A stretch of 44,090 bases of DNA, from the IMG/VR virus record IMGVR_UViG_3300043464_001173, positions 1 to 44,090 of that record, one strand, 5' to 3'. Under the pieces are notes generated by a model. That model did no database searches. It was not told where the DNA came from and saw nothing but the letters and a program-made list of their open reading frames with translations. Position numbers and translations under genes: made by a program. Positions 23,413 to 42,412 of this stretch are shown here, in pieces (position 1 is the first letter of the stretch; each line of letters opens with the position of its first letter). This DNA comes from a virus.

Positions 23413-24123
23413 ATGGCAACAAGCATGGATTTTCCAGGTAAGTCTAAAAAATATTCTGACAACATAAATAACTCTTATCAGCTTGAGCAACAAGTATCTT
23501 TTATAGCAGTTCCAGGTCCGCAAGGAGAACAAGGACCAAAGGGCGATAAAGGAGAGACTGGACCAGAAGGTAAGCAGGGACCTCAAGGAGATGCTGGAAG
23601 GCCTGGAAAAGATGGTAAGGACGGAAAACCAGGAGAAAGCAGTCTGTCACCATCAGGACAAAGAACTGGTTGGGCACTATACACAAATAAAAATCAAAAA
23701 GATATCACGTTGGGTGCCACTAAAGGAAATGATGGTTGGGTTAGATTTAACTTTGATTGCAAGGGTAAAAATAATGAGTTATACCTTCCAGAAAATAACG
23801 TTTCTTTATATAATGCAGAATCTCAAAAAATAAACCTAAAATCTTTAAAGGTTGGTTCAATAATAACGGTTCGTTATGATATTATTTTGACAACATTTAG
23901 TAATAATACAGAGGTTTGGTTTAGAACCTACATTCCAGAATCAGACTCTGGCCCAACCAGCTTTGGCGCAAACCTTAAATATCAGTTTTCCTATGACCTA
24001 TCACTAGAGCATACTTTTGCTATAGAAAGTGATATAATGAGAAATTACGGGGCATTCCCTCAAATCCTAACAGATAACGATGCTTCAATGGTCGTAAAAT
24101 CTATGTATATATTTGTTAGATAA
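23413..24123 (+). CDS. Collagen-like tail protein
   Basis: A 236-residue protein. Residues 36-78 contain about 14 unbroken Gly-X-Y triplets (PGPQGEQGPKGDKGETGPEG and on), with charged Lys-Gly-Asp/Glu triplets typical of phage collagen-like stalks, then a globular beta-rich C-terminal domain of about 145 residues that is likely the receptor-binding or trimerisation part. It probably forms a trimeric fibre. Prolines in X and Y positions are candidate substrates for the hydroxylase-like genes downstream; this is inference. Confidence 0.85.
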   Translation: MATSMDFPGKSKKYSDNINNSYQLEQQVSFIAVPGPQGEQGPKGDKGETGPEGKQGPQGDAGRPGKDGKDGKPGESSLSPSGQRTGWALYTNKNQKDITLGATKGNDGWVRFNFDCKGKNNELYLPENNVSLYNAESQKINLKSLKVGSIITVRYDIILTTFSNNTEVWFRTYIPESDSGPTSFGANLKYQFSYDLSLEHTFAIESDIMRNYGAFPQILTDNDASMVVKSMYIFVR

Positions 24124-24163: not shown

Positions 24164-25120
24164 ATGAGCTCACAAAATACTGGTACCACCGATTCATCAA
24201 AGAAGTCAAAGCCGAATGCACCAACTATTGGCACAGGTACAGATCAGGGCACTGGACGCACATATGACAATGGACAGGTTTCTGTATCTTTTACAGCTCC
24301 ATCATTTAATGGTAAGTCCCCTATTTTAGATTATACTGTAACTTCATCTGGCGGACAAACAGCAACTGGATCATCTTCACCAATCGTTATAACAGGATTA
24401 TCAACAGATGGAACTCCAGCAAATTACACTTTTACTGTTACTGCAAGAAATGCAATAGGAACATCTGATGCTTCTGCTGCAACTTCTGCAGTTGTTCCAA
24501 CATCTAAGCCAAACGCTCCAACAATTGGAACAGCATCTGGTGGAACTTCTGGTGTTGTATCAGTTACATTTACAGCTCCAAACAGTGGAAACTCACCTAT
24601 AACAGGATATACTGTAACATCTTCTTCTACTAAAACACAAAATGGTTCATCTTCACCAATTACAATTACAGAAACAGCAGCAGGAACATATACTTATAGA
24701 GTTACTGCAACTAACAATAATGGAGTATCTGATTTCTCTCAACCATCTAACTCTGTTGTTTCTACATTTGGTCCGTTCTTCCCACCATTCTTTCCATTCT
24801 TTCCATTCTTCCCGCCATTTTTCCCTCCATTCTTCCCGCCATTTTTCCCACCATTCTTCCCGCCGTTCTTCCCATTCTTCCCACCATTCTTCCCACCTTT
24901 CTTCCCGTTCTTCCCATTCTTCCCGTTCTTCCCACCGTTCTTCCCGTTCTTCCCATTCTTCCCGTTCTTCCCACCGTTCTTCCCGTACTTCCCATTCTTC
25001 CCATTCTTCCCACCGTTCTTCCCGTACTTCCCATTCTTCCCATTCTTCCCTCCATACTTCCCAAGTTTTGGACCAGCTGCACCGTACTTCCCATACTTCA
25101 CTTTACCTGGTGTCTGGTAA
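24164..25120 (+). CDS. FN3-domain protein with long Phe-Phe-Pro repeat tail
   Basis: A 318-residue protein. Residues 18-113 and 114-200 are two fibronectin type III domains (VSVSFTAPSFNGKSPILDYT; VSVTFTAPNSGNSPITGYTV). From about residue 203 to 300 the chain is a near-regular FFP/FFPP/YFP repeat with almost no other residue, ending PYFPYFTLPGVW. Such a sequence is very hydrophobic with rigid proline kinks. It could anchor the protein in a lipid or in the virion, or form a stiff rod. TACAAT-N7-ATG makes it leaderless. Confidence 0.85.
   Translation: MSSQNTGTTDSSKKSKPNAPTIGTGTDQGTGRTYDNGQVSVSFTAPSFNGKSPILDYTVTSSGGQTATGSSSPIVITGLSTDGTPANYTFTVTARNAIGTSDASAATSAVVPTSKPNAPTIGTASGGTSGVVSVTFTAPNSGNSPITGYTVTSSSTKTQNGSSSPITITETAAGTYTYRVTATNNNGVSDFSQPSNSVVSTFGPFFPPFFPFFPFFPPFFPPFFPPFFPPFFPPFFPFFPPFFPPFFPFFPFFPFFPPFFPFFPFFPFFPPFFPYFPFFPFFPPFFPYFPFFPFFPPYFPSFGPAAPYFPYFTLPGVW
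24771..25100 (+). repeat. TTCTTCCC-type DNA repeat coding Phe-Phe-Pro
   Basis: Tandem nine- and twelve-base units of TTCTTCCCN type. The minus strand and another plus frame are also open over this region because of the repeat, giving false ORFs. Confidence 0.9.
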
Positions 25121-25140: not shown

Positions 25141-25164
25141 AGCCAACATAGTTTGGCTTTTTTT
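25141..25164 (+). terminator. Stem-loop terminator
   Basis: AGCCAA-CATAGT-TTGGCT followed by eight T. It ends the collagen/FN3 transcript and separates it from the oxygenase array. Confidence 0.8.
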
Positions 25165-25270
25165 GTTTTATAGGGGTGGCACTCATATTATTTTAAAATA
25201 ATGTTTTTCTATATTGTTTGGTTGAAATTTAAATCAAGATGGTGTATAATGAATAAAAAAGGAGATTTTA

Positions 25271-25984
25271 ATGGAATTTTATGATGAAAACGAAAACCCT
25301 TGGTTTACAAAAGATAGATCTGAAACAGCATTAAATAGGGTTGCTGCAAAAACTATAGACAATGGCATTCTAGTAGAGAATCCAGGACTTGGTTTAAATG
25401 TTTACAGAAATGTTTTTTCATTAGAAGACTCTAAAAGATATATTGATATTCTTGAGTCAAACCTAAGCGGTAATAAAAAATATAGATGGTCAGAAGCACA
25501 AGTAACAAATTCTTCTACACCTATAAAAAGAGCAAGAGACTGTGTTGATTTTAGATTTAAGCAAGAAAATTTAGGACCAAGAGATGAGCATAACTCTGAG
25601 CTTATTGATCTACATCAAGAAATATATGAGAAGCTAAAGTATTGTATTGATGACTACGCAAAATATTGGGGAATCAATGTTGTATATTATGAAGCATTTA
25701 ATTTTGTAAAATATGAAGGAGAAGGAAAACACTTCAACATTCATGCAGACCATGGACCAGCATATAACGCAACAGTTTCTGCAGTTATTTATATTAACGA
25801 TGATTATGAAGGCGGAGAAATTCAGTTCCCAAGACTAGATGGATATACGCTTACTCCAAAGGTAGGAGATATTGCAATATTCCCATCAAACTATATTTAT
25901 GAGCATGCATCATTACCAATGAGGTCTGGAACAAAATATTGTGTTGTTATAATGACTGATATTAATGAGCTAGGTCACAAGTAA
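25271..25984 (+). CDS. 2OG-Fe(II) oxygenase 1, P4H-like
   Basis: A 237-residue protein. Iron ligands likely in NIHADHG (HxD) and IYEHASLP; 2OG-binding Lys in RSGTKYCVV. The strand INDDYEGGEIQF and the turn TPKVGDIAIFPSNY are those of prolyl 4-hydroxylase-like enzymes. Closest in the window to oxygenase 2 (26769). GTATAAT and AAAGGAG precede the ATG, so it has a normal leader and is the first gene of the array. It overlaps the next start by one base (TAATG). Confidence 0.9.
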   Translation: MEFYDENENPWFTKDRSETALNRVAAKTIDNGILVENPGLGLNVYRNVFSLEDSKRYIDILESNLSGNKKYRWSEAQVTNSSTPIKRARDCVDFRFKQENLGPRDEHNSELIDLHQEIYEKLKYCIDDYAKYWGINVVYYEAFNFVKYEGEGKHFNIHADHGPAYNATVSAVIYINDDYEGGEIQFPRLDGYTLTPKVGDIAIFPSNYIYEHASLPMRSGTKYCVVIMTDINELGHK

Positions 25985-26760
25985 TGACAATCAAAGAAAA
26001 TATTGCAAAGTTTACAGCATACAGACCGTGGATAACCAAGGATAGTCCTTCTGTTCCATCTCCAACACAATCTGTTATTCCTCAATGGTATAAAGATGCA
26101 GATAGATTTGCTAAGAATGCAGTTGGAGAATATTACAAAGCGCCAAAAGAAGTTTGTCCTTTTCCTAAAGAGGGAACAACTGATGACTATGGAAAAATTC
26201 CTACATGGAAAGCATGTCCAGCAATAATGGATGCATTTTCAACAGGCTATGTTCTTAAGACTCCATGTGATCTTACTTTTTTTAAAACAGCTGGTGGTTC
26301 AATAGATGTAAGAATAGATGATGCACGCCATAAAGATTTTTGTAGCAAAAGACTTGCTATGCCACAATTTGAGCACCCAAAAGGTTTTTATAGGGATCAT
26401 TTTGCCTGGTATCCAGATTGGGGCTTAGAGCTACCAGAAGGATATAGTGCATTGTTTATGACACCTATGAATCGTTTTGACTTACCATTCATGAATACCA
26501 CTGGAATTGTTGACAACGATAGTGTTCATCTTCTTGGAACATTTCCATTTTTTATTGCAGAAGGTTGGGAAGGAACTATTCCAGCAGGAACTCCATACGT
26601 TCAGATCCTTCCATTTAAAAGAGAAGATTGGTCACATGATATTAGTTTTATAGGGTCAACAGAGATATATGATAGAATGATGAAGAATGCTAACTTTTAT
26701 AGACAGCCTGACGGTGGAGTTTATAAGAATAAAGTTTGGTCTAGAAGAGAATATAAATAG
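25984..26760 (+). CDS. DUF6065-like protein 1
   Basis: A 258-residue protein of unknown function. VIPQWYKDADRF near residue 32, KACPAIMDAFSTGYVLKTPC at 77-96, and IPAGTPYVQILPF near 211-223 are blocks seen in a phage and marine-bacterial family that I recall as DUF6065. It resembles the 27425 protein in these blocks. It lies between two oxygenases with one-base and eight-base spacings, so it is probably part of the same pathway. Confidence 0.6.
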   Translation: MTIKENIAKFTAYRPWITKDSPSVPSPTQSVIPQWYKDADRFAKNAVGEYYKAPKEVCPFPKEGTTDDYGKIPTWKACPAIMDAFSTGYVLKTPCDLTFFKTAGGSIDVRIDDARHKDFCSKRLAMPQFEHPKGFYRDHFAWYPDWGLELPEGYSALFMTPMNRFDLPFMNTTGIVDNDSVHLLGTFPFFIAEGWEGTIPAGTPYVQILPFKREDWSHDISFIGSTEIYDRMMKNANFYRQPDGGVYKNKVWSRREYK

Positions 26761-26768
26761 GGGGAAAC

Positions 26769-27425
26769 ATGAAAACTTGGACAGAAAAAGTAAACCTTGG
26801 AAACGGAATTGTATGTTACAAGGGTGTAATCAACAAAGATATTGATGTTATTAATAGGATTGAGGCAGTAGTAAAGCCTTTGGGAGAAAAGGATCAGTTT
26901 ACATGGCAGCCAGCATATGTTGGTTATCAACAACTAATTCCTGACTACAGAGACTGCGTAGACTTTAAATATAAAAAGTCAGACATTGAGTTAAACACTA
27001 GTCCAGACTCAATTAAGCTACAAGAGTTATGGCAAGACCTTTATGATGTTAAATCTGCAGCAGTTGATGACTATAGAAAAGACTATAACATCATGGACCT
27101 AAAGTATTGGGAAGCGTTTAACTTTATTAAGTATGGTCCAGGACAACATTTCCAAGAGCACCATGATCATGGCTTCTCTTATAACTGTACAGTATCATTG
27201 GTTGCTTATCCAAATGATGATTATGAGGGTGGAGAGCTATACTTTAGACTTCAAAACTTATCAATTAAGCCAGATGCAGGAGACTTGTACATATTCCCAT
27301 CTAACTACATGTATCCACACCGTGCAATGCCAGTAACATCTGGAACAAAGTACTCTATTGTTACAATGTTAGATTATAACAAGAAGTTCCATACACCAGA
27401 AATGTATACTGAGGATAATCGGTAA
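26769..27425 (+). CDS. 2OG-Fe(II) oxygenase 2, P4H-like
   Basis: A 218-residue protein. HHDHGF contains HxD; the distal His is in YPHRAMP; the Lys in TSGTKYSIV binds 2OG. PNDDYEGGELYF and KPDAGDLYIFPSNY match oxygenase 1 closely, so the two are recent paralogues. GGGGGAAAC precedes the ATG. One-base overlap with the next gene. Confidence 0.9.
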   Translation: MKTWTEKVNLGNGIVCYKGVINKDIDVINRIEAVVKPLGEKDQFTWQPAYVGYQQLIPDYRDCVDFKYKKSDIELNTSPDSIKLQELWQDLYDVKSAAVDDYRKDYNIMDLKYWEAFNFIKYGPGQHFQEHHDHGFSYNCTVSLVAYPNDDYEGGELYFRLQNLSIKPDAGDLYIFPSNYMYPHRAMPVTSGTKYSIVTMLDYNKKFHTPEMYTEDNR

Positions 27426-28153
27426 TGCTTAATATTTCTGTTGAAAGATTTCCAGATTCAAAAATTGTTATTTCTCCAATGTCAATTAAAAGAGATTGGA
27501 TGGATGTAACACCAGAAAAGCATGCATACAGATGCTTTCCTGTTACTCAAGCAAATATGATTGGGTGGAATCTTTCATGCAAGGAAGACATTAAGTTTAT
27601 TTGGAACGGCATAAATGATACAAACTCAGACAATGTTACAATCTTAGAGGGTAACAATTTCACTTATACTGGAAGAGGTCAGTCCACTGTGAGTATTAAT
27701 ACAGGATTAACCTTCAGGTCTGAACAAAATGTTAGTATGTTTACTATCAATCCAGTAAACTACTTTAATGATGATTTTGAAACTATGTCTTCATTAATAA
27801 GCACATCTTGGCTAGACACTGGCTTTCCTTTAGCAATTAAAGCACGGTCTGCCAATAAAGAAATTACTATAAAAGCAGGAACCCCTATTGCAACACTAGT
27901 TCCAGTTTCTTTAAGTGCTATGGATAATACATCAATTCAAATCTTTGATTATTCCGACCCAGAAAGAAAAAGAGAAAAGGCACATCAGTCTTACGGAGAG
28001 GCAGCTCAAGTAATTAACAAGTCTGGAGAGTGGACTGACTGGTATAGAGATGCGGTTAATGAAAAAGGCGAAAGCGTTGGATCACATGAGACTAAGGTTT
28101 TACGTCTTTCAGTTACAGATAATACACAAAATAAGGGAAATGGTATAATCTAA
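27425..28153 (+). CDS. DUF6065-like protein 2
   Basis: A 242-residue protein. YRCFPVTQANMIGWNLSCKE at about 35-54 and IKAGTPIATLVPV at about 149-161 are characteristic blocks of the DUF6065 family as I recall it. It is a distant paralogue of 25984-26760. The C-terminal 60 residues are charged and helical (DPERKREKAHQSYGEAAQ). Function unknown; always beside oxygenases here. Confidence 0.65.
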   Translation: MLNISVERFPDSKIVISPMSIKRDWMDVTPEKHAYRCFPVTQANMIGWNLSCKEDIKFIWNGINDTNSDNVTILEGNNFTYTGRGQSTVSINTGLTFRSEQNVSMFTINPVNYFNDDFETMSSLISTSWLDTGFPLAIKARSANKEITIKAGTPIATLVPVSLSAMDNTSIQIFDYSDPERKREKAHQSYGEAAQVINKSGEWTDWYRDAVNEKGESVGSHETKVLRLSVTDNTQNKGNGII

Positions 28154-28155
28154 TT

Positions 28156-28830
28156 ATGGAAAACATAAATGCTTCTGTTGTAGTTAGAAAGCCTTCATTG
28201 ACCCCATCTGGCTGGTTTGGCAGTGGAAAAGAGATGATTGTTGAACTAGAAAACTTTATGACTCAAGAAGAAATGGACTTTTTAGAAAAGTCTGCAAAGT
28301 CTATAACAGTTTGGGATGTAACAGAAAGTCACGTAAATGAAAACGGTACTGTGGTATATGACTCAGACTATTGGAAAGACAGAGTTGCAACACAGCCAAG
28401 CTTAGACAAGAATGATCCAAACATCTCACCAGTCATCGCTGGACTATTTCAAAGATTACAACCAATCGTAGAAGATTTTTATAAGGTAAAGGTTATACCA
28501 ACTGGAACTACTATTGTAAAGTGGCTTCCAGGACAATTCCAAAAGCCTCATGCTGACAAAGAATTACATGAAGGGCCAGATGCTGGACTTCCAAATGATT
28601 TTCCAAACTATGACCTATCTAGTTTATTTTATTTAAATGATGACTATGAAGGAGGAGAGTTATACTTTCCAAATCAAGGTGTTCAATTTAAGCCTAAAAA
28701 GGGTGCAGCCTACTTCTTCCCTGGAGACATGAACTATATTCATGGTGTAACAGAAATTAAAAGTGGACTTAGATTTACCTGCCCATTTTTCTGGGAGATA
28801 ACAGAGCATACTGGAGATAGAAAACCTTAA
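28156..28830 (+). CDS. 2OG-Fe(II) oxygenase 3, P4H-like
   Basis: A 224-residue protein. KPHADKE (HxD), IHGVTEIKSGLRF (distal His and 2OG-binding Arg), LNDDYEGGELYF and KPKKGAAYFFPGD. TATAAT lies six bases before the ATG although the gene sits within the array, so an internal leaderless promoter is likely. Confidence 0.9.
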   Translation: MENINASVVVRKPSLTPSGWFGSGKEMIVELENFMTQEEMDFLEKSAKSITVWDVTESHVNENGTVVYDSDYWKDRVATQPSLDKNDPNISPVIAGLFQRLQPIVEDFYKVKVIPTGTTIVKWLPGQFQKPHADKELHEGPDAGLPNDFPNYDLSSLFYLNDDYEGGELYFPNQGVQFKPKKGAAYFFPGDMNYIHGVTEIKSGLRFTCPFFWEITEHTGDRKP

Positions 28831-28831
28831 T

Positions 28832-29701
28832 ATGAGTACAAATCTTGAGGCTATAGAAATCTATCCACATATTCTTGTTTATAAGAACATGTTTAAAGAT
28901 ATCTCAAAGTCTTACAAGGTATTAACTGATTCTTTAGTAGAGTCAGAAGACAGGCTTTTTAGTAATTGGACAAAATGGTCTATTTTTGGTGACTATCTAA
29001 ATCCAATATTTCCTGGAATGATTTTGGATGATAAGTATGCTGGTTTGAAAAATATTGAAACAAGCACACAAACTCAAGAAGACCAGAAAAACTTTGTCAT
29101 GGAAATGATGGAAAATTTTTATTTAGTTACTGAAGACTATATAAAAAGATATAATGTTGATGTAGATTTTGATGCAGCCTCTGTAGACGAAAGTGGAAAC
29201 ACTGTACCAACCTGGAGATGGGCAGGCGGAACAATAGGAAAATATCATATAAGTAATGAAACAGAGCAACATGGAATGAGATATCACTCAGACTATATGA
29301 GAGAGCAAGGAAGTGCTCCAGGATATAAGTTCATAATTACATGTACAATTTACTTTAATGATGACTATGAGGGAGGAGAGGTTGATTTTGCTATGGGTGA
29401 TAAACTTGTTAAGTATAAGCCAGTTGCAGGCGATCTTTTAGTTTTTCCATCAGGACATCCAGACTACCTTACAGAAGACGGTAAGCCATACCTACATGGT
29501 GTTATGCCATCTTATAACAATCATAAATTTTTATCAAGAATGTATTGGCAAAAATATCAAAAAGGCACGGATGAATGGTATGCAAAAGAAAAGGAATTTG
29601 GTAAAGAATCTTGGTACGCCATGCAGCCAGAACTAGAAGAACAGTTTAGAAGAGATAATCCACAAAGACATATTATAGAAGGAGCGGTAAGAGTAAAATG
29701 A
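28832..29701 (+). CDS. 2OG-Fe(II) oxygenase 4, P4H-like
   Basis: A 289-residue protein, the longest of the array. RYHSDYM (HxD), YLHGVMPSYNNHKFLSRMYW (distal His and a basic residue), FNDDYEGGEVDF, KPVAGDLLVFPSG. An extended helical C terminus ends with a basic stretch. The ATG begins right after the previous TAA and the stop overlaps the next ATG by four bases. Confidence 0.88.
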   Translation: MSTNLEAIEIYPHILVYKNMFKDISKSYKVLTDSLVESEDRLFSNWTKWSIFGDYLNPIFPGMILDDKYAGLKNIETSTQTQEDQKNFVMEMMENFYLVTEDYIKRYNVDVDFDAASVDESGNTVPTWRWAGGTIGKYHISNETEQHGMRYHSDYMREQGSAPGYKFIITCTIYFNDDYEGGEVDFAMGDKLVKYKPVAGDLLVFPSGHPDYLTEDGKPYLHGVMPSYNNHKFLSRMYWQKYQKGTDEWYAKEKEFGKESWYAMQPELEEQFRRDNPQRHIIEGAVRVK

Positions 29702-30447
29702 ACCTAAACAATAAGCATAGGCTTACAAAAGACATTGTTGTTTATGAAAACTTTATCAGTGATGAAGACTGCAAAAAAATGATTCAGGCACTAGACGCTC
29801 AAGCAGACAATGGAGCAATTACATGGATGCCTATTTCTTTTTATGAGTCATACTCTTCTGTACTGCCACAAGACAATGACCAAGAAGTAGTTGATGCTGG
29901 ACTATCTCCAACTATTTTTTCAGATATTGAAAACAAGATGCCAGAGGCAATTGCATCAGTCCATGATGTTGACCCTAAGATAATTTCAAAAATTGGATAC
30001 CACACTCAAAAGTGGGAGCCAGGAGCATATGCAAGACTACACTCTGATAACACAGACGAGAAGGGTAATTCTGGAGCATTTACAAGAAGTAGATATGCTG
30101 GTTTCTTATACTTAAACGATGACTTTGAGGGTGGTCTTTTAAGGTTCCCAGCCCAGAATATAGAAATTCAACCAAAGACTGGTATGCTTGCCGTTTTTGA
30201 CGGGGGATTTAACAATATGCACGAGGTATCACTTATTACTAAGGGTGTAAGATATACAATAGGATCATTCTGGGATGATAGAGAAGAAGATGCATACCCA
30301 CAAGAACTAAGAGATGCTTGGGCAGAAGAAATGAAAGAAACAAGAGCAAAGCAAGAGGTTGAAAGAGCAGAGTGGCAAGAGCTGCTTAAGCAGGGGTGGA
30401 AGCTAGATAAAGATGGAAACAAATACAAGCCAGAGGAGGGAATCTAG
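29698..30447 (+). CDS. 2OG-Fe(II) oxygenase 5, P4H-like
   Basis: A 249-residue protein. ARLHSDNTD (HxD), MHEVSLITKGVRYTI (distal His, Arg), LNDDFEGGLLRF. The C-terminal 55 residues form a highly charged helix (EEMKETRAKQEVERAEWQEL) that might contact a partner. Confidence 0.88.
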   Translation: MNLNNKHRLTKDIVVYENFISDEDCKKMIQALDAQADNGAITWMPISFYESYSSVLPQDNDQEVVDAGLSPTIFSDIENKMPEAIASVHDVDPKIISKIGYHTQKWEPGAYARLHSDNTDEKGNSGAFTRSRYAGFLYLNDDFEGGLLRFPAQNIEIQPKTGMLAVFDGGFNNMHEVSLITKGVRYTIGSFWDDREEDAYPQELRDAWAEEMKETRAKQEVERAEWQELLKQGWKLDKDGNKYKPEEGI

Positions 30448-30448
30448 T

Positions 30449-31108
30449 ATGTCCGCATATCTTTCAAAAGAGCTAGAAGAGTTTGGTATAGAGTTTAATG
30501 AAATAACAAAGGATGTTATTTTGATAGAAAACTTTGTATCTGAAGAAGAGTTATCAGAATACATGAAAATTATTAACAATACTCCAGAAGAAGATTGGCA
30601 TATAGAATATACAAAAAATCTTAAAAGATTCTGTATGGAAAAGTTTGGAAGAGATGATGTTGATAATCTTGTTGCAGAAGGAAAATTTGAAATAACGCAG
30701 GGTTGGGCAGATAAAAATTTAGTTATTGGTGGAACAGAGATTTATCGTAAAGTTTATCGCAGATTGGCAGATATTGTACATTATTCAGATCCAACTCTAG
30801 AGCTTAGCGGATTAGCAACACTGCAAAGAATGCAAACTGGTGTTGAGCTGAAGGCTCATACAGACCAAGATACAGATCCATCAATCAGATATGCAACCAT
30901 ACTTTATCTTAATGATGAATATGTTGACGGAGAGCTATTCTTTGAGAAATTTGACTTTACGATAAAGCCAAAAAAGGGATCTTTAATAATATTCCCAGGA
31001 ACTAGCGACTTCCATCACGGAGTAGTTCCAGTAGGAGACGGTCCAATAAGATATGTTCTGGTTGGATTTGTTAAAGAAAAAAACTTTTATGAGAAAAATA
31101 AGTACTAA
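30449..31108 (+). CDS. 2OG-Fe(II) oxygenase 6, P4H-like
   Basis: A 219-residue protein. KAHTDQD (HxD), DFHHGVVPVGDGPIRYVLV (His, Arg), LNDEYVDGELFF. The start at 30449 was chosen over an upstream ATG because GAGGAGGG lies just before it. Confidence 0.88.
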   Translation: MSAYLSKELEEFGIEFNEITKDVILIENFVSEEELSEYMKIINNTPEEDWHIEYTKNLKRFCMEKFGRDDVDNLVAEGKFEITQGWADKNLVIGGTEIYRKVYRRLADIVHYSDPTLELSGLATLQRMQTGVELKAHTDQDTDPSIRYATILYLNDEYVDGELFFEKFDFTIKPKKGSLIIFPGTSDFHHGVVPVGDGPIRYVLVGFVKEKNFYEKNKY

Positions 31109-31114
31109 GGAGAT

Positions 31115-31849
31115 ATGATGAATAAAGAGATTCTAGATCCAAAAGTTTATTACTATACTGATGCAATTGATAATTTTGATAAGTTTCAGCAGACGCTCCT
31201 GGAGCTAGATGAACTAGAATCTTCTAATGACTTTAATGTTAATGTTTGGGATAACTGGACATCTTCTAATGATAAAACTTTTATTTATGGACAAACTAAA
31301 ACATTTGATCTATCAGCAATTGAACAAATAAAGGGTGAGGTTGGAGAAAAAAGCAAATATATTTATGATGCCGTAATGACAACATTTACTAATATATGCA
31401 AGGACTATGCATCATCTTTAGGAGATTTTGACGAGCCAAGACTATTTCCAACATTTAACATTAAAAAATACAACTCTGGAATGGGTATGGGTGCACATTT
31501 TGATCAGTTAGATGGAGATCAAACACTAAGATATTCGCTTGTTATGTATTTAAATGATGACTGTGAAGGCGGAGAGATTTCTTTTCAGTTAAAAGATTAT
31601 GATGGTGGGTGGACTAGTTCTGATGGATGGGTGCGTGGCGCACCAGCTGTTGATTTAGACTACGATGTAGCAGTTGCTGATAAATCAATAGATTTTGGTG
31701 TTAAACCAAAAGCAAACAGTGTAATAATATTTCCAGCATCAGCACCATATTTTCACACAGCCCATGTTGTAAAGTCTGGACATAAGTATATGGTTCCTGG
31801 ACACTGGATTCACAACAACATGAGTCTTAATCGCAACGAAAGTATGTAA
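31115..31849 (+). CDS. 2OG-Fe(II) oxygenase 7, P4H-like
   Basis: A 244-residue protein. GAHFDQL (HxD), YFHTAHVVKSGHKYMV (His, Lys), LNDDCEGGEISF. About 45 extra residues (DYDGGWTSSDGWVRGAPAVD and on) are inserted between the NDD strand and the distal His, unlike its neighbours. AAGGAGATATG precedes the start; a second in-frame ATG follows at once. Confidence 0.88.
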   Translation: MMNKEILDPKVYYYTDAIDNFDKFQQTLLELDELESSNDFNVNVWDNWTSSNDKTFIYGQTKTFDLSAIEQIKGEVGEKSKYIYDAVMTTFTNICKDYASSLGDFDEPRLFPTFNIKKYNSGMGMGAHFDQLDGDQTLRYSLVMYLNDDCEGGEISFQLKDYDGGWTSSDGWVRGAPAVDLDYDVAVADKSIDFGVKPKANSVIIFPASAPYFHTAHVVKSGHKYMVPGHWIHNNMSLNRNESM

Positions 31850-32518
31850 GTGAAGACTGCTATTGTAACAGGGGCAAGCAAAGGTGTTGGTCGTGCAACA
31901 GTTAAGTTGTTGTCTCAAAATGGGTATCATGTTATAGCTGTATCAAGAAATTTATCTAAGATGTCAGACTTAGTTTCAGATAATGTTGAAATTTACCAGT
32001 TAGATATAACTGACTCTAAGCAGATAGAAGACTTTGCTGAAAAATATAAAGATATATCTTTAGATCTTTTAGTAAATAATGCTGGTGGTGGTGCAAGTCC
32101 AACAATGATAATAAACGAAACTCCAGCAAATTTTAGAACAGCGTATGACATTAATGTAACAGGACCAATGTATCTTTCTCAGCTGTTTGTTACAGCAATG
32201 AAAAAATCTCAATCTCCAACTATCATATTCATTAGCTCTTTAGGTGGAAAAGTACCATACCGTTCTGGTGGTAACTACATCAACGCCAAAAGAGGCCAAA
32301 TGGCTCTTGTAGATACAATGCGTCTAGAGTTTCCAGCCTATAATATTAAGATAACAGAAATTTGTCCAGGAACTATTGATACTCAAGAAGAAAAGCGGGA
32401 TAGTGCAATAACTGCAGAAGATATGGCAGAGTGTATTCGCTGGGTGTCTGAGTTGCCAAGTCACGTAAACATTAATCACATTGAACTTAACCATATTCAT
32501 AGCAGTAAGTTTGGATAA
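31850..32518 (+). CDS. Short-chain dehydrogenase/reductase
   Basis: A 222-residue SDR: cofactor motif TGASKGVGRA (residues 7-16), an NNAGG segment near 76, catalytic Ser in FISSLGG and the Y-x-x-x-K pair in NYINAKRG. The Arg in VSRNL suggests NADP preference. GTG start directly after the previous stop. It may reduce or oxidise the hydroxylated product, or make a donor; the substrate is unknown. Confidence 0.85.
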   Translation: MKTAIVTGASKGVGRATVKLLSQNGYHVIAVSRNLSKMSDLVSDNVEIYQLDITDSKQIEDFAEKYKDISLDLLVNNAGGGASPTMIINETPANFRTAYDINVTGPMYLSQLFVTAMKKSQSPTIIFISSLGGKVPYRSGGNYINAKRGQMALVDTMRLEFPAYNIKITEICPGTIDTQEEKRDSAITAEDMAECIRWVSELPSHVNINHIELNHIHSSKFG

Positions 32519-32519
32519 A

Positions 32520-33098
32520 ATGAAGTATGACTTTATAATCAATAAGCTTGCTGAAGATGTTTATGAGATTGAAAACTTTTTAAGTCAAGATGAACTAAAT
32601 AGTATTTTGGAAGTTATAGAGAATGAACCATCAACAAGCTGGTTTGACACAAATCACATATCAAATACTAAAGACTTTTGGTATGGTAAAAGCTTGTTTT
32701 TATCTGATCATTACGATTTATGCAATAGGATTGTTTTTGACAAGGTTAAAAATATATTTTCTTCATATTTTTATTGTGAAACAGAGTTAAAAATATCTAG
32801 ATTTAAAAAGGATGATCAAATTAAGGCTCATCGTGATAATGATACAACACCAGCAGGCTACTATTTAGGTTATGGTTTGGTAATTTATTATAATGATGAC
32901 TATCTTGGAGGAGAAATTGACTATCCAGAGCTTGGTATCACTATAAAGCCAAAGGCAGGTTCAGCATTACTCCACGGAGGAGAAATCCTGCATGGCTCTT
33001 TGCCAGTTTTAAGTGATTCTACAAGATACTTTTCAACAGTATTTATGAGGGGTAACGATGAATACCCAACAACGCTCAATAAAGATCTTCCTTTTTAG
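32520..33098 (+). CDS. 2OG-Fe(II) oxygenase 8, P4H-like
   Basis: A 192-residue protein, the shortest of the array. KAHRDND (HxD), LHGSLPVLSDSTRYFSTV (distal His, Arg), YNDDYLGGEIDY. The start at 32520 follows the SDR stop by one base (TAAAATG). It ends by overlapping the convergent lysozyme-like gene by four bases. Confidence 0.88.
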   Translation: MKYDFIINKLAEDVYEIENFLSQDELNSILEVIENEPSTSWFDTNHISNTKDFWYGKSLFLSDHYDLCNRIVFDKVKNIFSSYFYCETELKISRFKKDDQIKAHRDNDTTPAGYYLGYGLVIYYNDDYLGGEIDYPELGITIKPKAGSALLHGGEILHGSLPVLSDSTRYFSTVFMRGNDEYPTTLNKDLPF

Positions 33099-33667
33099 AT
33101 TGGAAACTTCTTCATCCAAACTTTAGTCTTTGGCGTAATGCCATGCCAAGCAGACCAGTTCTTTCCACCATTACTCATATGATATGCAACCTGTGCATTA
33201 ATGACAGGGTTTAAAAGCTCACTGTTAAAGTTGAGCCCAAATTTATCTTGACGACCTTCTTTTAGCATTCCAAGCATATTGATCTGGAAGATACCATAAG
33301 AATTGTCTCCAGTCTTTACATTGCCATTGAAAGCAAGTGGTCGTCCATTAGACTCCTTCTTGGCTACAGCCCAAGCCTTGACTAGGCCTTCACCACGAAA
33401 ACCAACGGCATGCAAAAGCTCCTTTAGCTGACGATCTGTAAGGCTAACAGCATCTTGATATTTATATAGAACATCTAGGTTCTTTTTTACTGCTACCAAA
33501 CTTTTAGGCTTAGAAACCAAAAAAACCGCCTTGGCGGTTGAAGGTTCAGCTAAAGCTGGTTTACTCAGATTATTTTCAGTACTTAAAGCGTTAGCTGCAT
33601 TACTTAGTGGTGCAATAAGCCCAAGTGCAGCAAGGATTCCAATCCAAATCTTTTTATCTCTTCTCAT
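33095..33667 (-). CDS. Secreted lytic transglycosylase/lysozyme-like protein
   Basis: A 190-residue protein with a signal peptide (MRRDKKIWIGILAALGLIAP, Ala-rich cleavage region near 24-28). The SLT-like core has AVAKKESNGRPLAF with the probable catalytic Glu, and NSYGIFQINMLGM; the C-terminal YHMSNGGKNWSAWHG is the usual end of this domain. It cleaves peptidoglycan. A secreted form on the opposite strand inside the late block could be a lysis or entry enzyme. AGGAGG precedes the ATG. Confidence 0.8.
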   Translation of the reverse strand: MRRDKKIWIGILAALGLIAPLSNAANALSTENNLSKPALAEPSTAKAVFLVSKPKSLVAVKKNLDVLYKYQDAVSLTDRQLKELLHAVGFRGEGLVKAWAVAKKESNGRPLAFNGNVKTGDNSYGIFQINMLGMLKEGRQDKFGLNFNSELLNPVINAQVAYHMSNGGKNWSAWHGITPKTKVWMKKFPI

Positions 33668-33710: not shown

Positions 33711-33809
33711 ACTATCTAAGTATAACATGAAATTGACCCAAAAGGCAAGTTTTTGTAATATTTTTTTAAATTATTTTATTTGTTGTTTTCATCGTGGTAT
33801 AATATAAAA

Positions 33810-34223
33810 ATGGCTACATTCAGAGGACAAGCATCTACATACGACATTGGTGAAAGACCACCATTCGTAAACTGGACTTTTGTTAAGGGCGACACAGCAG
33901 CTTTTAAGGTTTATTTAACTGATGATGCTAAAGTTCCTTTGGTTATCCCTGACTGGAACATTTCTATGCAGATTAAGCGTCCTACTACAAACCCAGTAGT
34001 TCCTGGAGAAATAACAGATACAGCAACACTTATTTACACATTAACACCAATTCAAGATGCAGATGACCTTGTTGGAGAGTTTACTGTTTCTTTGACAGCA
34101 TCACAAACAGCTAATCTTCAAACCAATGATATTTTTGATATTGAGGTTTCACTTGATCAGGATGCAATAGTTTGGACGGTAGCTCAAGGCAAACTCATTG
34201 TCCTTGAGGATGTAACTGCATAA
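33810..34223 (+). CDS. Tail-associated beta-sandwich protein (LtfC/BppU-like)
   Basis: A 137-residue protein. FVNWTFVKGDTAAFKVYLTD followed by WNISMQIKR matches the 22916-23317 protein and the small tail domain of actinophages. The start at 33810 was chosen because TATAAT lies six bases upstream (leaderless). The stop overlaps the next ATG. Confidence 0.65.
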   Translation: MATFRGQASTYDIGERPPFVNWTFVKGDTAAFKVYLTDDAKVPLVIPDWNISMQIKRPTTNPVVPGEITDTATLIYTLTPIQDADDLVGEFTVSLTASQTANLQTNDIFDIEVSLDQDAIVWTVAQGKLIVLEDVTA

Positions 34224-34447
34224 TGGCTACTGTTAAGATATATGAAGACAGGCCAGTATTTACAAAAAGAATTGAGCAAGACTTTGCAATTAGAGCAAGT
34301 ATTAGTGCTCCAAGCAAAAATGTAGTTATAAACTCTACACTACCTTTTAGAATTAGACTAACAGCAATTCGCATTGAAGCAGGTGGAGCAAGTGCTGTTC
34401 CTCCAATTCCGCTTCAAATTATTGGCTACAGTAATTATATACTTTAA
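34223..34447 (+). CDS. Hypothetical protein, 74 aa
   Basis: MATVKIYEDRPVFTKRIEQD then VINSTLPFRIRLTAIRIEAG. Beta-rich; perhaps a small tail component given the place between tail genes. No family recognised. Confidence 0.6.
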   Translation: MATVKIYEDRPVFTKRIEQDFAIRASISAPSKNVVINSTLPFRIRLTAIRIEAGGASAVPPIPLQIIGYSNYIL

Positions 34448-34470
34448 TATAAATATGCTATAATAAGCAT

Positions 34471-34917
34471 ATGTCCAGACTACCACTTAGCTCAATAAAG
34501 TCAACATTTCAAACAGGAGATCGTCCTACACAGACAGATTATGAGAACCTGATTGATACTACAGCTGCTCAGTCAACAGACTTAGGATCGTCTGGAAACA
34601 ATGAGAACACTATTTCAGATATTCAGAATGCAACAGTTATTGATAACTTTGATGCAACTGTTTGGCGAATGGTCAAGTACTTAGTCTCCATAAAGAAGAC
34701 AACAAATGGAGATAACAAGTTTTATGCAACAGAAATGACAATACTTGTTGATGGAGACGGTGTTTCCGTTAGCGAGTATGGAACAATAGACAACGATGGG
34801 AACATTGGCACCATTAGTGTCTCTAGGGTGGCGAATACAGTAAATCTTTCTGTAACGCCAGCAGTGGGTATTACGCCTATAACCGTACGATTTGCTCGTA
34901 TGGGTTTAAAGGCTTAA
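34471..34917 (+). CDS. Putative tail protein, 148 aa
   Basis: MSRLPLSSIKSTFQTGDRPT is followed by a beta-rich segment with repeated T/V/S strands. The C-terminal half (TVWRMVKYLVSIKKTTNGDN and on) resembles the C-terminal domain of the 34936 fibre (residues 600-682: EFLVKTAYSTHTEISKVLLT), so it may be a shared adhesin or trimerisation domain. Leaderless (TATAAT-N6-ATG). Confidence 0.6.
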   Translation: MSRLPLSSIKSTFQTGDRPTQTDYENLIDTTAAQSTDLGSSGNNENTISDIQNATVIDNFDATVWRMVKYLVSIKKTTNGDNKFYATEMTILVDGDGVSVSEYGTIDNDGNIGTISVSRVANTVNLSVTPAVGITPITVRFARMGLKA

Positions 34918-34935
34918 CCAACAAGGAGATAAAAA

Positions 34936-36984
34936 ATGGCAACAGTAAATAAAGACTTTAAGGTAAAGAATGGGCTGATTGTTGAAGGCACAACTGCCAG
35001 GGTCAACAATTTTGACATTCTTACAAAGAAGCAAGCAGATCAAGACTACATTGTTAGTCTTATTGGTGGAACAGCAACATCTGCTAACACTGCAGACACA
35101 GTTGTAAAGCGTGACGGTTCAGGAAACTTTGCTGCTGGAACAATCACAGCAAACCTAACTGGTAACGTAACAGGTAACGTAACTGGTAATGTAACTGGTA
35201 CAGTTTCAGATATTTCAAACCATAACACAGATGACCTAACTGAAGGAACTACAAATAAATACTTTGCAACAGGTCTAGTTGATAACCACCTATCAGGTGG
35301 AGATGGAATTTCATACTCATCAGGAACAATTTCTGCAGACCTTGGAACAGGTCTTGAAATTACAAGTGGTCAAATTGTTGTAGATCGTGACACAGTTGAT
35401 ACTTGGTACGATGCAGCAGGTTCAGCAAGCACAGTTGCTGGAAACCTTACAACACACCAAACAGCAACAACTGGTATCCATGGTGTAACTGGTAATGTTG
35501 TTGGAACATCTGATACACAGTCACTTTCAAATAAGACAATTTCTTATGCAGACAACACAATCACAGTTCAGGTTGCAAATGTTTCAGACCTAACTGCATC
35601 TGCAGCAGAACTTAATCTTCTTGACGGAGTAACTGCAACAACTGCAGAACTTAACCTTCTTGATGGAGTAACTGCAACAACTACTGAGTTGAACTATGTA
35701 GACGGAGTAACATCTGGTATTCAGGGTCAACTTGATGACAAGGCACCACTTGCATCCCCATCACTAACTGGAACTCCGTTGGCTCCAACAGCAGCACCAG
35801 GAACAAACAATACTCAAATTGCAACAACAGCATATGCTGATGCAGCAGTAGCAGCAATTGTGGATGGTGCCCCTGCTCTTCTTAATACACTTAATGAATT
35901 AGCAGCAGCAATTAATGATGATGAAAACTTCGCTTCAACACTTACCACACTAGCAGGAGAAAAGGTAGCCAAGGCTGGCGATACAATGACTGGACTTCTT
36001 GTCCTTTCAGCAGATCCATCAGCAAACCTTGGAGCAGCAACAAAGCAATATGTTGATGCAGCCGAATCAGATGCAGTAACATCAGCAAATTCTTACACAG
36101 ATGGCCGTGAGACAGCAATTACAACTGCTTACCAGTCATACGCTGATATAGCAGAACAAGATGCAAAAGACTACGCAGACGACTTGATCAATGATGCCTC
36201 ATCTTCTTCAGCAGAAGTTTGGTCAGCATATAAGACAGGCACAGAAATTGGTCTTGCACAAGCAGCAGCAATTGCACACGCAGATGCTCTTGATACAGAT
36301 GATGTAGCAGAGGGTACAGAAAACCTTTACTTCACAAACCAGAGAGCAATTGACGCTGTAGGTGGAACAATTACAAGTGCAATTAATGCACTTGATACAG
36401 ATGATATTGAAGAAGGAACAGAAAACCTTTATCATACATCATCTCGTGCTAAGTCAGCAGCAGCAGAACTTCTTGTAGCTGCAACTAAGACAAACATTAC
36501 AATTACAGGAACAGGTGCAGGACTTACTATCACCGCAGAAAACGGTGTAGCAGATTCTACAACTACTGATCTTGCAGAAGGAACAAACCTTTACTTCACA
36601 AATGCTCGTGCAGTAGCTGCTCTTGAAGCAGTTGTTCCTAACTTCACTGAAGTAGATATTAACTCACTTGCAACACAGGTAGCTGCAACAGTATCTGTAC
36701 CAACAGCAAGCTCTAATAACGTAGCATACTCTTTTGCTAAGGCAGACTATCGCTCAGCAGAGTTCTTGGTAAAGACTGCTTACTCAACTCACACAGAAAT
36801 ATCAAAGGTACTTTTGACACTTGATACTTCTGATAACATTGCAATAACAGAGTACGGAACAATCGGAACAAATGGTACAGCAATGACTATCTCAGCAGAC
36901 ATTGACGGATCAAATGTACGACTTCTAGTAACTACTGCTAATAATACTTCAACAATTACGGTTGTTGGAACACTACTGAAGTAA
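34936..36984 (+). CDS. Tail fibre protein with modular repeats, 682 aa
   Basis: N-terminal module MATVNKDFKVKNGLIVEGTT also starts the 37005 protein. It is followed by VTGNVTGNVTG tandems, then three copies of an AELNLLDGVTATT block, a DGAPALLNTLNELAAAI block, LYFTNARA/LYFTNQRA blocks typical of phage tail fibres, and a C-terminal beta domain. It probably forms a trimeric host-recognition fibre. AAGGAG before ATG. Confidence 0.85.
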   Translation: MATVNKDFKVKNGLIVEGTTARVNNFDILTKKQADQDYIVSLIGGTATSANTADTVVKRDGSGNFAAGTITANLTGNVTGNVTGNVTGTVSDISNHNTDDLTEGTTNKYFATGLVDNHLSGGDGISYSSGTISADLGTGLEITSGQIVVDRDTVDTWYDAAGSASTVAGNLTTHQTATTGIHGVTGNVVGTSDTQSLSNKTISYADNTITVQVANVSDLTASAAELNLLDGVTATTAELNLLDGVTATTTELNYVDGVTSGIQGQLDDKAPLASPSLTGTPLAPTAAPGTNNTQIATTAYADAAVAAIVDGAPALLNTLNELAAAINDDENFASTLTTLAGEKVAKAGDTMTGLLVLSADPSANLGAATKQYVDAAESDAVTSANSYTDGRETAITTAYQSYADIAEQDAKDYADDLINDASSSSAEVWSAYKTGTEIGLAQAAAIAHADALDTDDVAEGTENLYFTNQRAIDAVGGTITSAINALDTDDIEEGTENLYHTSSRAKSAAAELLVAATKTNITITGTGAGLTITAENGVADSTTTDLAEGTNLYFTNARAVAALEAVVPNFTEVDINSLATQVAATVSVPTASSNNVAYSFAKADYRSAEFLVKTAYSTHTEISKVLLTLDTSDNIAITEYGTIGTNGTAMTISADIDGSNVRLLVTTANNTSTITVVGTLLK

Positions 36985-37004
36985 TCTAACAAAGGAGAAG
37001 CCAA

Positions 37005-37463
37005 GTGTCAACGGTTAATAAGGATTTTAAAGTAAAAAACGGGTTAATCGTTGGCCTTGGTGCATCCTTTGGAGGTGTGGTTAGTGTTGCAACTCCAACA
37101 CTTGCAAACCACGCTGCAACCAAGGAATATGTTGATAACCTAACGGGTGCACCATCTATTCCAGTATCAGATGATGCTCCATCATCTCCTACAAATGGAG
37201 ATTTGTGGTTTGATAGTGTAACTGAACGAGTTCATGTTTATTATAGTGGTGAATGGTTAGCAATTGCAACATTGGCTGACTCAGAAGTTTTGCAGGATCA
37301 CATCCACGATACTGCAATTGACGGTACTGGTTTAATTGTCAGTACTTTTGTTTCTGGTGGGTCTTACGACGAACCTGGTGTTCTAGTAAGTGCTGGCAGT
37401 TATAATACCAACTCATGGGAAAGTACATGGGATGGCGGAACACCAATAGATAATTTTAATTAA
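37005..37463 (+). CDS. Short tail fibre-like protein, 152 aa
   Basis: GTG start with AAAGGAG upstream. The first 16 residues (STVNKDFKVKNGLIVG) match the N terminus of the 682-residue fibre, then VSVATPTLANHAATKEYVDN, a linker common to fibre genes, and a C-terminal WESTWDGGTPIDNFN. Probably an accessory fibre or a truncated copy. Confidence 0.7.
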   Translation: MSTVNKDFKVKNGLIVGLGASFGGVVSVATPTLANHAATKEYVDNLTGAPSIPVSDDAPSSPTNGDLWFDSVTERVHVYYSGEWLAIATLADSEVLQDHIHDTAIDGTGLIVSTFVSGGSYDEPGVLVSAGSYNTNSWESTWDGGTPIDNFN

Positions 37464-37506
37464 TTATCTGATATAATACTATTACATCACCCTAAGGAGA
37501 TTTTAA

Positions 37507-40378: not shown

Positions 40379-42412
40379 ATGTCAGAAAGTGTATTTTCAT
40401 TTCGTTTGTCAGATGAGTTTGTAAATAAATATCAGTTAATTCCAGCACCATTTGGATTCTCAGATGCAGGGTCTAACTCGCTAGGAGAGATCACATTTAT
40501 TCGCACATATTCTCGTGTCAAAGAAGATGGAACTAAAGAACGCTGGCATGAGGTTTGTCGCCGTGTAATTGAGGGTATGTATTCAGTACAAAAAAATCAT
40601 GCTAAAGATAATCGTCTACCATGGAATGATAACAAAGCACAGAAGTCTGCACAAGAAGCCTTTCAAAGAATGTTTGAATTAAAGTGGACTCCACCAGGTC
40701 GTGGTCTTTGGGCATTTGGTACACCTATGACTATGGAGAAGCGTAACTCTGCATCACTTCAAAATTGTGCAATGGTGTCTACAAGAGACCTTGATCGTAA
40801 TGATCCTGGTGCATTATTTGCTTGGGTAATGGATGCATTAATGTTGGGTATTGGGGTTGGATTTGATACCCTTGGACAAGATAAGCAGATGCCTATCTAT
40901 GCACCAACAGAACCAGCATCAACTTATGATATTCCTGATACTCGTGAAGGATGGGTTGAATCAGTTCGTCTTTTGATTAACTCATTCCTGCGCCAGAATC
41001 AATCAATTCAGCTTTTCAACTATGACCTTATCCGTCCTCTAGGTGCTCCTATTAAGGGTTTTGGAGGGGTTGCAAGCGGTCCAGCACCACTTATTGATCT
41101 CCATACACGTATTCGCAATGTAATTGGCTCTAGAGCAGGAGAAATTCTTGATAGCCGTGCCATTGTAGATATTGTAAATCTTATTGGTACTTGTGTTGTT
41201 TCTGGTAATGTTCGTCGTTCTGCTACCCTTGCACTTGGCACACCAGAAGACCATGGTTTTATTAATTTAAAGAATCCAGAAGTATTTCCAGAGCGTAACT
41301 CATATGATCCAGAAAAGCCAGGTTGGGCATGGATGTCAAATAACTCTATTGCAGCAACAGTTGGAACAAAATATGAAGACTATGTAGATTTAATTGCGGA
41401 CAACGGAGAACCAGGATTTATATGGCTTGATGTTGCTCGTGATTATGGCCGTCTTGCGGACGCACCTGATTATAAAGATGCACGTATTATGGGCTTCAAC
41501 CCTTGTGCGGAGCAGCCATTAGAGTCATACGAACTTTGTACACTTGTAGAGGTGCACTTAAATCGTCATGAATCCAAGGAGGACTTCCTCAAGACGTTGA
41601 AGTTTGCATACCTTTACGGAAAGACTGTAACTCTTATGCCTACACATTGGCAGCAGACAAACGGTATTATGCAAAGAAACCGTCGTATTGGTACATCATT
41701 GACAGGTATTGCATCATTTGCAGATACATATGGTCTTCCAACAACTCGTGAATGGATGGACGAAGGATATAAAAAGATTCGCCATTATGATCACAAGTAC
41801 TCAGAGTGGCTATGTGTGCGTGAATCAGTTCGTGTAACAACAGTTAAGCCATCAGGATCTGTATCACTTCTTTCTGGTGCAACACCTGGTGTTCACTGGG
41901 GACCTGGTGGAGAGTTCTACCTTCGTGCAATTCGTTTTGGAAACACTGATCCAATGCTTCATCTTTTCAAAGCTGCAGGGTATAAAATTGAAGCAGACCT
42001 AGTATCAGCAAATACCTCAGTAGTATACTTCCCAGTTGCATCAGGACATAAGCGTGCTGAGAAGCAGGTAAGCTTGTTTGAGAAGATTGGTTTGGCAGCA
42101 ACAGCTCAGAAGTACTGGTCAGACAATGGTGTTTCTGTAACACTCTCATTTGACAAAGAAACAGAAAAGCAGTTTGTAGCTCCAGCACTCAACATGTATG
42201 AGGGACAGCTTAAGGCAGTCTCATTCCTTCCAATGGGCAATAAGACATATCCTCAGCAACCGTACACTGAGATTTCTAGAGAAGAATACAACGCATATGT
42301 AGGAACAATTGGCAAGATTGATTGGTCTGCTATTTATGATGGTGTAGAGAATCTTGAGGCTGAGGGTGAAGCATATTGCTCAACTGATGCTTGTGAGATT
42401 AAGCTGTATTAA
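40379..42412 (+). CDS. nrdJ: Class II (adenosylcobalamin-dependent) ribonucleoside-triphosphate reductase
   Basis: A 677-residue monomeric RTPR. The first active-site Cys is in the LQNCAMVST region (residue about 122), the radical-site motif NPCAEQPLESYELC at about 379-392 holds the catalytic Asn-x-Cys-x-Glu, a CVVSGNVRRSA block at about 270, and the C-terminal redox pair is in CSTDACEIKLY. TVKPSGSVSLLSGATPGVHW is a family signature. It makes dNTPs from NTPs and needs coenzyme B12 from the host. It feeds phage replication, but here lies between fibre and portal genes. Confidence 0.93.
   Translation: MSESVFSFRLSDEFVNKYQLIPAPFGFSDAGSNSLGEITFIRTYSRVKEDGTKERWHEVCRRVIEGMYSVQKNHAKDNRLPWNDNKAQKSAQEAFQRMFELKWTPPGRGLWAFGTPMTMEKRNSASLQNCAMVSTRDLDRNDPGALFAWVMDALMLGIGVGFDTLGQDKQMPIYAPTEPASTYDIPDTREGWVESVRLLINSFLRQNQSIQLFNYDLIRPLGAPIKGFGGVASGPAPLIDLHTRIRNVIGSRAGEILDSRAIVDIVNLIGTCVVSGNVRRSATLALGTPEDHGFINLKNPEVFPERNSYDPEKPGWAWMSNNSIAATVGTKYEDYVDLIADNGEPGFIWLDVARDYGRLADAPDYKDARIMGFNPCAEQPLESYELCTLVEVHLNRHESKEDFLKTLKFAYLYGKTVTLMPTHWQQTNGIMQRNRRIGTSLTGIASFADTYGLPTTREWMDEGYKKIRHYDHKYSEWLCVRESVRVTTVKPSGSVSLLSGATPGVHWGPGGEFYLRAIRFGNTDPMLHLFKAAGYKIEADLVSANTSVVYFPVASGHKRAEKQVSLFEKIGLAATAQKYWSDNGVSVTLSFDKETEKQFVAPALNMYEGQLKAVSFLPMGNKTYPQQPYTEISREEYNAYVGTIGKIDWSAIYDGVENLEAEGEAYCSTDACEIKLY

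Follow-up and report, generated by a model that had tools for sequence, protein, structure and literature searches.

A conserved oxygenase array in freshwater phages, coupled to a candidate tail adhesin with a Phe/Pro repeat

2-Oxoglutarate (2OG)-Fe(II) oxygenases are common in aquatic phages, and some cyanophages are rich in them: 24 such genes of unknown function occur in S-SCSM1 and nine in S-SZBM1 (PMC9602691, PMC9146016). According to the S-SCSM1 study, what these enzymes do in viruses has not been the subject of specific investigation (PMC9602691). The S-SCSM1 genome has four adjacent 2OG genes (SSCSM1_240-243) directly before two tail-fibre genes and three more after them; other cyanophage 2OG genes sit in other contexts. 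A further system is the Mimivirus-type lysyl hydroxylase/glucosyltransferase of a giant virus, in which Lys of Gly-X-Y collagen is modified by an enzyme with a fused glycosyltransferase and collagens are encoded by the virus. The current work concerns an array of eight 2OG-Fe(II) oxygenase genes in IMG/VR record IMGVR_UViG_3300043464_001173, a fragment of 44,090 bases analysed whole (the window), and the gene directly upstream, FFP, whose product carries a repeat of Phe, Tyr and Pro. The first-pass annotation of this DNA had held that one or two such oxygenase genes are known in phages and had taken their number by itself as unprecedented. The first statement was mistaken and the second is not supported; because multi-2OG phages were already known, the oxygenase count alone is not new. 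The conserved operon and its coupling to FFP are undescribed as far as our searches reach, and no paper on phage prolyl hydroxylases and tail fibres was found in the open-access literature.

On balance, the locus appears to be a phage cassette for a tail adhesin with an F/P repeat, encoding both the protein and the enzymes that subsequently oxidise it. The array is conserved and intact, its enzymes have a prolyl-hydroxylase fold, it is tightly coupled genetically to F/P-repeat tails, and it is placed in the tail-fibre region. An earlier reading of the array as a small-molecule pathway has given way to a best-supported target that it did not mention, the upstream fn3/FFP-repeat adhesin. The genes of the cassette are listed below, with active-site residues in the order HxD, distal His, 2OG-binding residue.

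24164..25120, plus strand: FFP, fn3 protein (fn3 4e-12) with a C-terminal (F/Y)(F/Y)P(P) repeat tail, candidate substrate
25271..25984, plus strand: ox1, prolyl 4-hydroxylase (P4H)-like 2OG-Fe(II) oxygenase (PF13640 2.7e-11; HAD/H/K)
25984..26760, plus strand: D1, DUF6065-related, dUTPase-like (beta-clip) predicted fold (phrog_7084 3.4e-33; AlphaFold2 pLDDT 89)
26769..27425, plus strand: ox2, P4H-like oxygenase (PF13640 1.9e-14; HHD/H/K)
27425..28153, plus strand: D2, DUF6065 protein (PF19541 4.7e-31)
28156..28830, plus strand: ox3, P4H-like oxygenase (PF13640 3.9e-9; AlphaFold2 pLDDT 91)
28832..29701, plus strand: ox4, P4H-like, long C-terminus, facultative in relatives (PF13640 6.2e-9; HSD/H/K)
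29698..30447, plus strand: ox5, P4H-like, charged C-terminal extension (PF13640 8.6e-9; HSD/H/R)
30449..31108, plus strand: ox6, P4H-like, alternative open reading frame (ORF) start at 30413 (PF13640 4.5e-12; HTD/H/R)
31115..31849, plus strand: ox7, P4H-like, insertion between strands (PF13640 1.1e-9; HFD/H/K)
31850..32518, plus strand: short-chain dehydrogenase/reductase (SDR; PF00106 1.1e-40), as a rule the last or next-to-last array gene
32520..33098, plus strand: ox8, P4H-like, facultative in relatives (PF13640 1.4e-5, 26.4 bits; HRD/H/R)

As first annotated, eleven successive plus-strand ORFs are tightly packed at 25271-33098; intergenic distances are -4 to +8 nt, taking ATG 30449 as the start of ox6 and ATG 32520 as that of ox8. 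They comprise eight 2OG-Fe(II) oxygenases, one DUF6065 protein, one distant DUF6065 relative and one SDR.

The FFP protein consists of fn3 domains followed by about 100 residues of FFP/FFPP units, encoded at 24773-25062. The DNA of the tail is repetitive; its Pro codons are mixed (CCA, CCG, CCT) and Phe is almost always TTC. In homologues from relatives the fn3 parts differ and the tail type is the same. Elsewhere in some genomes, FFP modules also lie within proteins of 1383, 1561 and 1807 aa, beside a large conserved tail-region gene. The FFP protein is presumably present in virions.

Linkage of FFP and array was followed in five tests, whose counts overlap and share ancestry, so that the p-values given here overstate independence. 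An FFP protein was found at most 2.5 kb upstream in 41 of 41 deduplicated array loci with enough upstream DNA. A probe blind to the enzymes, a degenerate FFPPFFPFFP DNA pattern run on IMG/VR, gave oxygenases at most 3.5 kb downstream in 50 of 54 loci; of the four loci that lack them, three are on contigs with an array at another place. In a panel of 24 contigs anchored on the portal gene, all seven with at least seven oxygenases have FFP and 14 have neither (Fisher p 0.00035). Anchoring on a neutral tail gene of 148 aa gave 43 loci, 12 with FFP and array and 24 with neither (Fisher p 1.3e-5); the seven mismatches are one FFP without array and six arrays without FFP. Among these six, FFP lies just beyond the fetched DNA in three and one begins at a contig end, and of the remaining two, one has a variant FFPPGFFAPP repeat and the other weak oxygenase hits only. 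Lastly, homologues of the fn3 protein have oxygenases at 18 of 20 loci when their tails are dense in F/Y/P, and at none of 12 when the tails are Gly-rich, Cys-rich or of other types (p 4e-7). Since the array is almost always accompanied by the FFP protein, the enzymes probably modify the FFP repeat.

Several points weigh against this interpretation. Three of the 24 portal-anchored contigs (G011, G012, G014) have FFP and 0-1 oxygenase; these are fragments, and from the portal position the variable slot probably lies beyond the contig end. The relatives are not independent: the portal tree consists mainly of two clades, with one clear joint switch, the array- and FFP-bearing genome G021 within the negative clade. 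Low-proline repeats of the FSFTPFG type accompany 0-1 oxygenase. Repeats richer in Pro are not accompanied by more oxygenases (rho 0.11, p 0.53), and the idea that longer repeats go with more enzymes was dropped for want of correlation.

Some further features of these adhesins were observed in relatives. A Hint/intein-like domain forms the C-terminus of several F/P-repeat adhesins (L069:6423-7745, L074, L423:15461-16825, L443, L463, L533), which suggests self-cleavage or ligation C-terminal to the repeat. The FFP C-termini in L039, L063, L085, L419 and L473 share a recurrent SS(K/E/A/R)RFKHSI..V.. motif, a truncated sequence that resembles how a peptidase S74 chaperone begins. Other fn3 proteins (L289:751-1902, L454:9159-10727, L463:14895-16253) combine a Hint-like domain with a different aromatic repeat, FSFVPF / FSFTPFGV; 0-1 oxygenase is found near them, and DUF6065-like genes adjoin two.

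The surroundings of the cassette carry the following features.

23413..24123, plus strand: collagen-like (Gly-X-Y) tail protein (PF01391 4.1e-8), context gene
25141..25158, plus strand: terminator-like stem-loop with T run, 3' of the FFP gene
25222..25250, plus strand: promoter-like TTGAAA-17-TATAAT (11/12 match), 20 nt 5' of ox1
33095..33667, minus strand: SLT lysozyme-like gene (PF18896 1.2e-16), edge of the variable slot, and the same edge in array-less relatives
33780..40230, plus strand: tail-fibre-like genes beside the cassette (147, 74, 148, 682, 152 and 907 aa; from ORFs and synteny)

Stem-loops resembling the one after FFP occur in relatives with paired substitutions, and promoter-like sites of at least 10/12 lie upstream of the array in 17 of 59 relatives' regions, against 2.9 expected. 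Beside the tail-fibre module, at 40379-42412 on the plus strand, there is a strongly conserved adenosylcobalamin-dependent (class II) ribonucleoside-triphosphate reductase.

Relatives without the array keep the collagen-like, SLT and tail-fibre genes; between the first two, other genes fill the slot, among them, in two of three such relatives examined, a DUF6065-like gene and one for a Gly-rich tail-tip-like protein. The unit of FFP and array precedes the tail-fibre genes in some loci and follows them in others. This swapping of the slot, the two positions of the unit and the FFP modules in giant tail proteins indicate that FFP is probably a variable adhesin, with the enzymes travelling with one tail type. 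It is very doubtful that the two are linked in position alone, a single hypervariable slot having taken up adhesin and array as unrelated cargo that recombination moves together. The exchange of slot content among relatives and the small number of independent events would suit such passive linkage; yet FFP and array stay together at both positions, phages with the array have FFP motifs in separate giant tail proteins as well, and no oxygenases accompany those fn3 homologues of this region whose tails are not F/P-rich.

The collagen-like protein two genes upstream of the array might instead be the substrate, as for collagen prolyl and lysyl hydroxylases, with FFP a bystander. Its gene is close by in the window, and B. 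anthracis P4H, P3H1, LH3 and PBCV-1 vCPH are among the nearest solved relatives of the enzymes. This gene, however, is present in 24 of 25 array-less loci, including L383-L385, in which other genes occupy the array slot, and in many loci it lies apart from the array; FFP, by contrast, comes and goes with the array. The collagen-like gene, kept in array-less relatives, is thus not specifically tied to the array; as main substrate its product was set aside, and this explanation is distinctly unlikely.

Assignment of the oxygenases rests on several comparisons. All eight match PF13640, seven above the gathering score and ox8 slightly under it (26.4 vs 27 bits), and all match phrog_61. When aligned, ox1-ox8 retain the iron triad of HxD and distal His and a 2OG-binding residue, Lys in ox1, 2, 4 and 7 and Arg in ox3, 5, 6 and 8, as the first-pass annotation had stated; the divergence it described, an insertion in ox7 and long C-termini in ox4 and ox5, is likewise visible. 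The nearest paralogue of ox1 is ox2, at 42 % identity. The best match of the family profile is B. anthracis P4H, followed by P3H1, PKHD enzymes, LH3 and EGLN1. The double-stranded beta-helix fold of prolyl-hydroxylase type was judged on one of the eight, the AlphaFold2 model of ox3 (pLDDT 91), for which the best solved match is PBCV-1 vCPH (5c5t), followed by a PKHD-type oxygenase, B. anthracis P4H, P3H1, Chlamydomonas P4H and PHD2. There are 566 PDB matches at E<=0.001, and the top ones listed are mainly prolyl hydroxylases. Judged from this model, the solved matches are mostly protein hydroxylases, many with proline-rich or collagen-like peptide substrates, and the closest known fold of the array oxygenases is that of peptidyl-prolyl hydroxylases (viral vCPH, B. 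anthracis P4H). Features of animal collagen P4H, the peptide-substrate-binding domain and the protein disulfide isomerase (PDI) beta subunit, are absent: the ORFs are 192-289 aa with a single catalytic domain, and the array has no PDI gene. All of ox1-ox8 are presumably active enzymes.

That some of these enzymes oxidise DNA or RNA bases, in a Tet/JBP-like or AlkB-like manner, is hardly credible: weak sub-threshold Tet_JBP matches were obtained for ox3 and ox8, and DenV neighbours some cyanophage 2OG genes, but PF13640 and the structural matches point to peptidyl-prolyl hydroxylases and the array contains no DNA-modification genes. Two further genes of the window touch on this superfamily. A divergent, ninth 2OG-like gene at 3180-3959 (minus strand; PF13640 25.2 bits, sub-threshold) adjoins NTP-transferase and glycosyltransferase genes; its HxD is unclear in the alignment and possibly HxE. 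A TauD-type 2OG dioxygenase lies at 5808-6626 (plus strand; PF02668 6e-19).

The array is old and belongs to a widespread group of lake phages. Queries with D2 and ox2 each matched about 550-600 or more IMG/VR stretches, and the order ox1-D1-ox2-D2-ox3-(ox4)-ox5-ox6-ox7-SDR-(ox8) is preserved in more than 100 freshwater viral contigs (gene calling, best loci). Arrays seen whole have 5-11 oxygenases, and single records give as many as 14 oxygenase matches. The Fe and 2OG ligands are all but invariant (13-121 unique orthologues per group), being intact in hundreds of orthologues. Against four relatives, the dN/dS of the oxygenases is 0.02-0.29, with synonymous sites saturated in a few pairs, indicating strong purifying selection; ox3 is the most constrained (0.02-0.04). 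Decay of the array, which the annotation had named together with loss of Fe ligands and absence from relatives as grounds for doubt, was rejected, since catalytic residues are kept under purifying selection.

The eight groups need 10 label changes on a tree of 185 sequences, where 7 is the minimum and shuffling gives a mean of 127. So few changes mean that the paralogues predate the radiation of these phages, and recent amplification was rejected because eight separable old lineages are seen; the long branches make the deep joins uncertain. Later duplication is evident from additional ox4- and ox7-like copies. The annotation's argument for different substrates and against simple amplification is therefore partly supported: the eight lineages are old, under purifying selection and not recent duplicates.

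The host of these phages is plausibly actinobacterial from sequence similarity, since the portal protein shares about 45 % identity with its counterpart in Streptomyces BE-type phages (~131 kb). No close relative was found among GenBank phages by megablast, and none for D2 by tblastn. Short contigs with these phage genes (L280, L285, L289) occur in Chitinophagaceae and Microbacteriaceae metagenome-assembled genomes, where they are probably mis-binned; L280 has both FFP and array.

The accessory genes of the array were also considered. The earlier assignments of two DUF6065-like proteins and an SDR hold: D2 is a strong member of PF19541 (108.5 bits vs gathering 26.6), D1 has no Pfam hit and is linked to D2 by profile-profile comparison (96.6 %), and the SDR matches PF00106. 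All 50 listed PDB matches of the D1 model in Foldseek are dUTPases or dCTP deaminases, at E of about 0.002-0.02 and low TM; against a viral structure library dUTPases appear again, ranked after unnamed phage proteins. Among dUTPase motifs sought by eye, GIVDNDxV with two invariant Asp is like motif 3 without the usual Tyr, and the others were not recognised. Co-occurrence of DUF6065 with the oxygenases, which had been put forward for a search of related phages, is conserved alongside the array and is not specific to it: DUF6065-like genes are found at 16 of 25 array-less loci, and alone in some Gammaproteobacteria and Bradyrhizobium genomes, and so are not dedicated to hydroxylation. An array-specific partnership was rejected, these genes also standing beside Gly-rich and FSFVPF-type proteins without arrays. 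DUF6065 is unmentioned in the open-access literature, with no family function described; an adhesin-associated or binding role is our guess.

Relatives' arrays include accessory GPx-like and glycosyltransferase genes, which are compatible with further decoration. A GPx-like gene stands within one oxygenase array (L143:12078-12851), and the window has a peroxiredoxin-like gene at 146-682 (minus strand). The GPx-like and glycosyltransferase genes, together with the SDR within the array, could also speak for a host-directed or small-molecule system, in which host proteins (cf. B. anthracis P4H on EF-Tu), free amino acids or surface metabolites are hydroxylated, or 2-oxoglutarate levels shifted in infection, with SDR, GPx and glycosyltransferase in the pathway. 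PDB 5v7y is among the top matches of the ox3 model, and cyanophage 2OG genes have been guessed to be metabolic or involved in DNA repair (PMC9602691, PMC9146016). Such a system would leave the tight coupling to F/P-dense tails and the tail-fibre location unexplained, and we regard it as unlikely.

In the proposed oxidation of the adhesin by its neighbouring enzymes, the fn3/FFP protein would be the tail adhesin and its Phe/Tyr-Phe/Tyr-Pro(-Pro) repeat the substrate. The eight diverged oxygenases would hydroxylate this repeat, prolines most likely and aromatics possibly, with different oxygenases taking different repeat positions or successive steps, and would also act on the FFP modules of giant tail proteins in some genomes. 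Hydroxylation would turn an otherwise insoluble Phe-Pro tail into one that is soluble, extended and adhesive, or prime it for further decoration. D1 and D2, with their predicted dUTPase-like fold, are likely non-catalytic, adhesin-associated helpers, and the SDR may take the oxidised residues as substrates or serve some other purpose. A more far-reaching suggestion, offered tentatively, is that a dedicated multi-enzyme maturation operon gives these phages a Phe/Tyr-Pro adhesin with extensive hydroxylation, containing hydroxyproline and possibly hydroxylated aromatics, as mussel adhesives or extensins do. On that reading, several different oxygenases would build a tail fibre post-translationally, for the first time in a bacteriophage, with glycosylation possibly next in relatives.

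Adhesin tails and enzymes are exchanged together, a natural experiment that links the conserved operon of oxygenases with a single candidate substrate and would give phage 2OG oxygenases a concrete, testable target. If the proposal is true, phages oxidatively modify their own tail adhesins, which adds a new layer to the diversity of host recognition. The array would also be a source of compact prolyl hydroxylases with differing specificity.

Several known systems come close to the array. PBCV-1 vCPH (5c5t, 5c5u), the best structural match of ox3, is likewise a virus-encoded single-domain prolyl-hydroxylase fold; it is an algal virus enzyme of about 18 % identity, whereas the array consists of 5-11 diverged paralogues in a phage operon with an F/P-repeat adhesin beside it. 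B. anthracis P4H (3itq, 5hv0, 5iax, 5v7y), the best sequence-profile match of the family, is a bacterial single-domain P4H but a single cellular enzyme, without array or FFP partner. DUF6065 (PF19541) / phrog_7084, with D2 as member and D1 as relative, gains a predicted dUTPase-like fold here. The T4-like cyanophages S-SCSM1 and S-SZBM1 also have many diverged PF13640-type genes per phage; unlike those of the array, their 2OG genes are mostly scattered or of mixed Pfam families, and the conserved ox1-ox8/DUF6065/SDR order and the FFP repeat were not seen in these sets. Between two 2OG blocks of the cultured Synechococcus phage S-SCSM1, the short tail fibre SSCSM1_245 (L548:13880-15145) has a low-complexity Arg/Gln/Pro/Phe-rich repeat of RQPRSFRQPR type and is a possible testable analogue. 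PDB 6ax6, among the profile matches of the array family, is presumably linked with the Mimivirus-type lysyl hydroxylase/glucosyltransferase. That enzyme differs in modifying collagen Lys, in its fused glycosyltransferase and in belonging to a giant virus; in both systems, the virus encodes a repeat structural protein together with a hydroxylase, here a candidate one.

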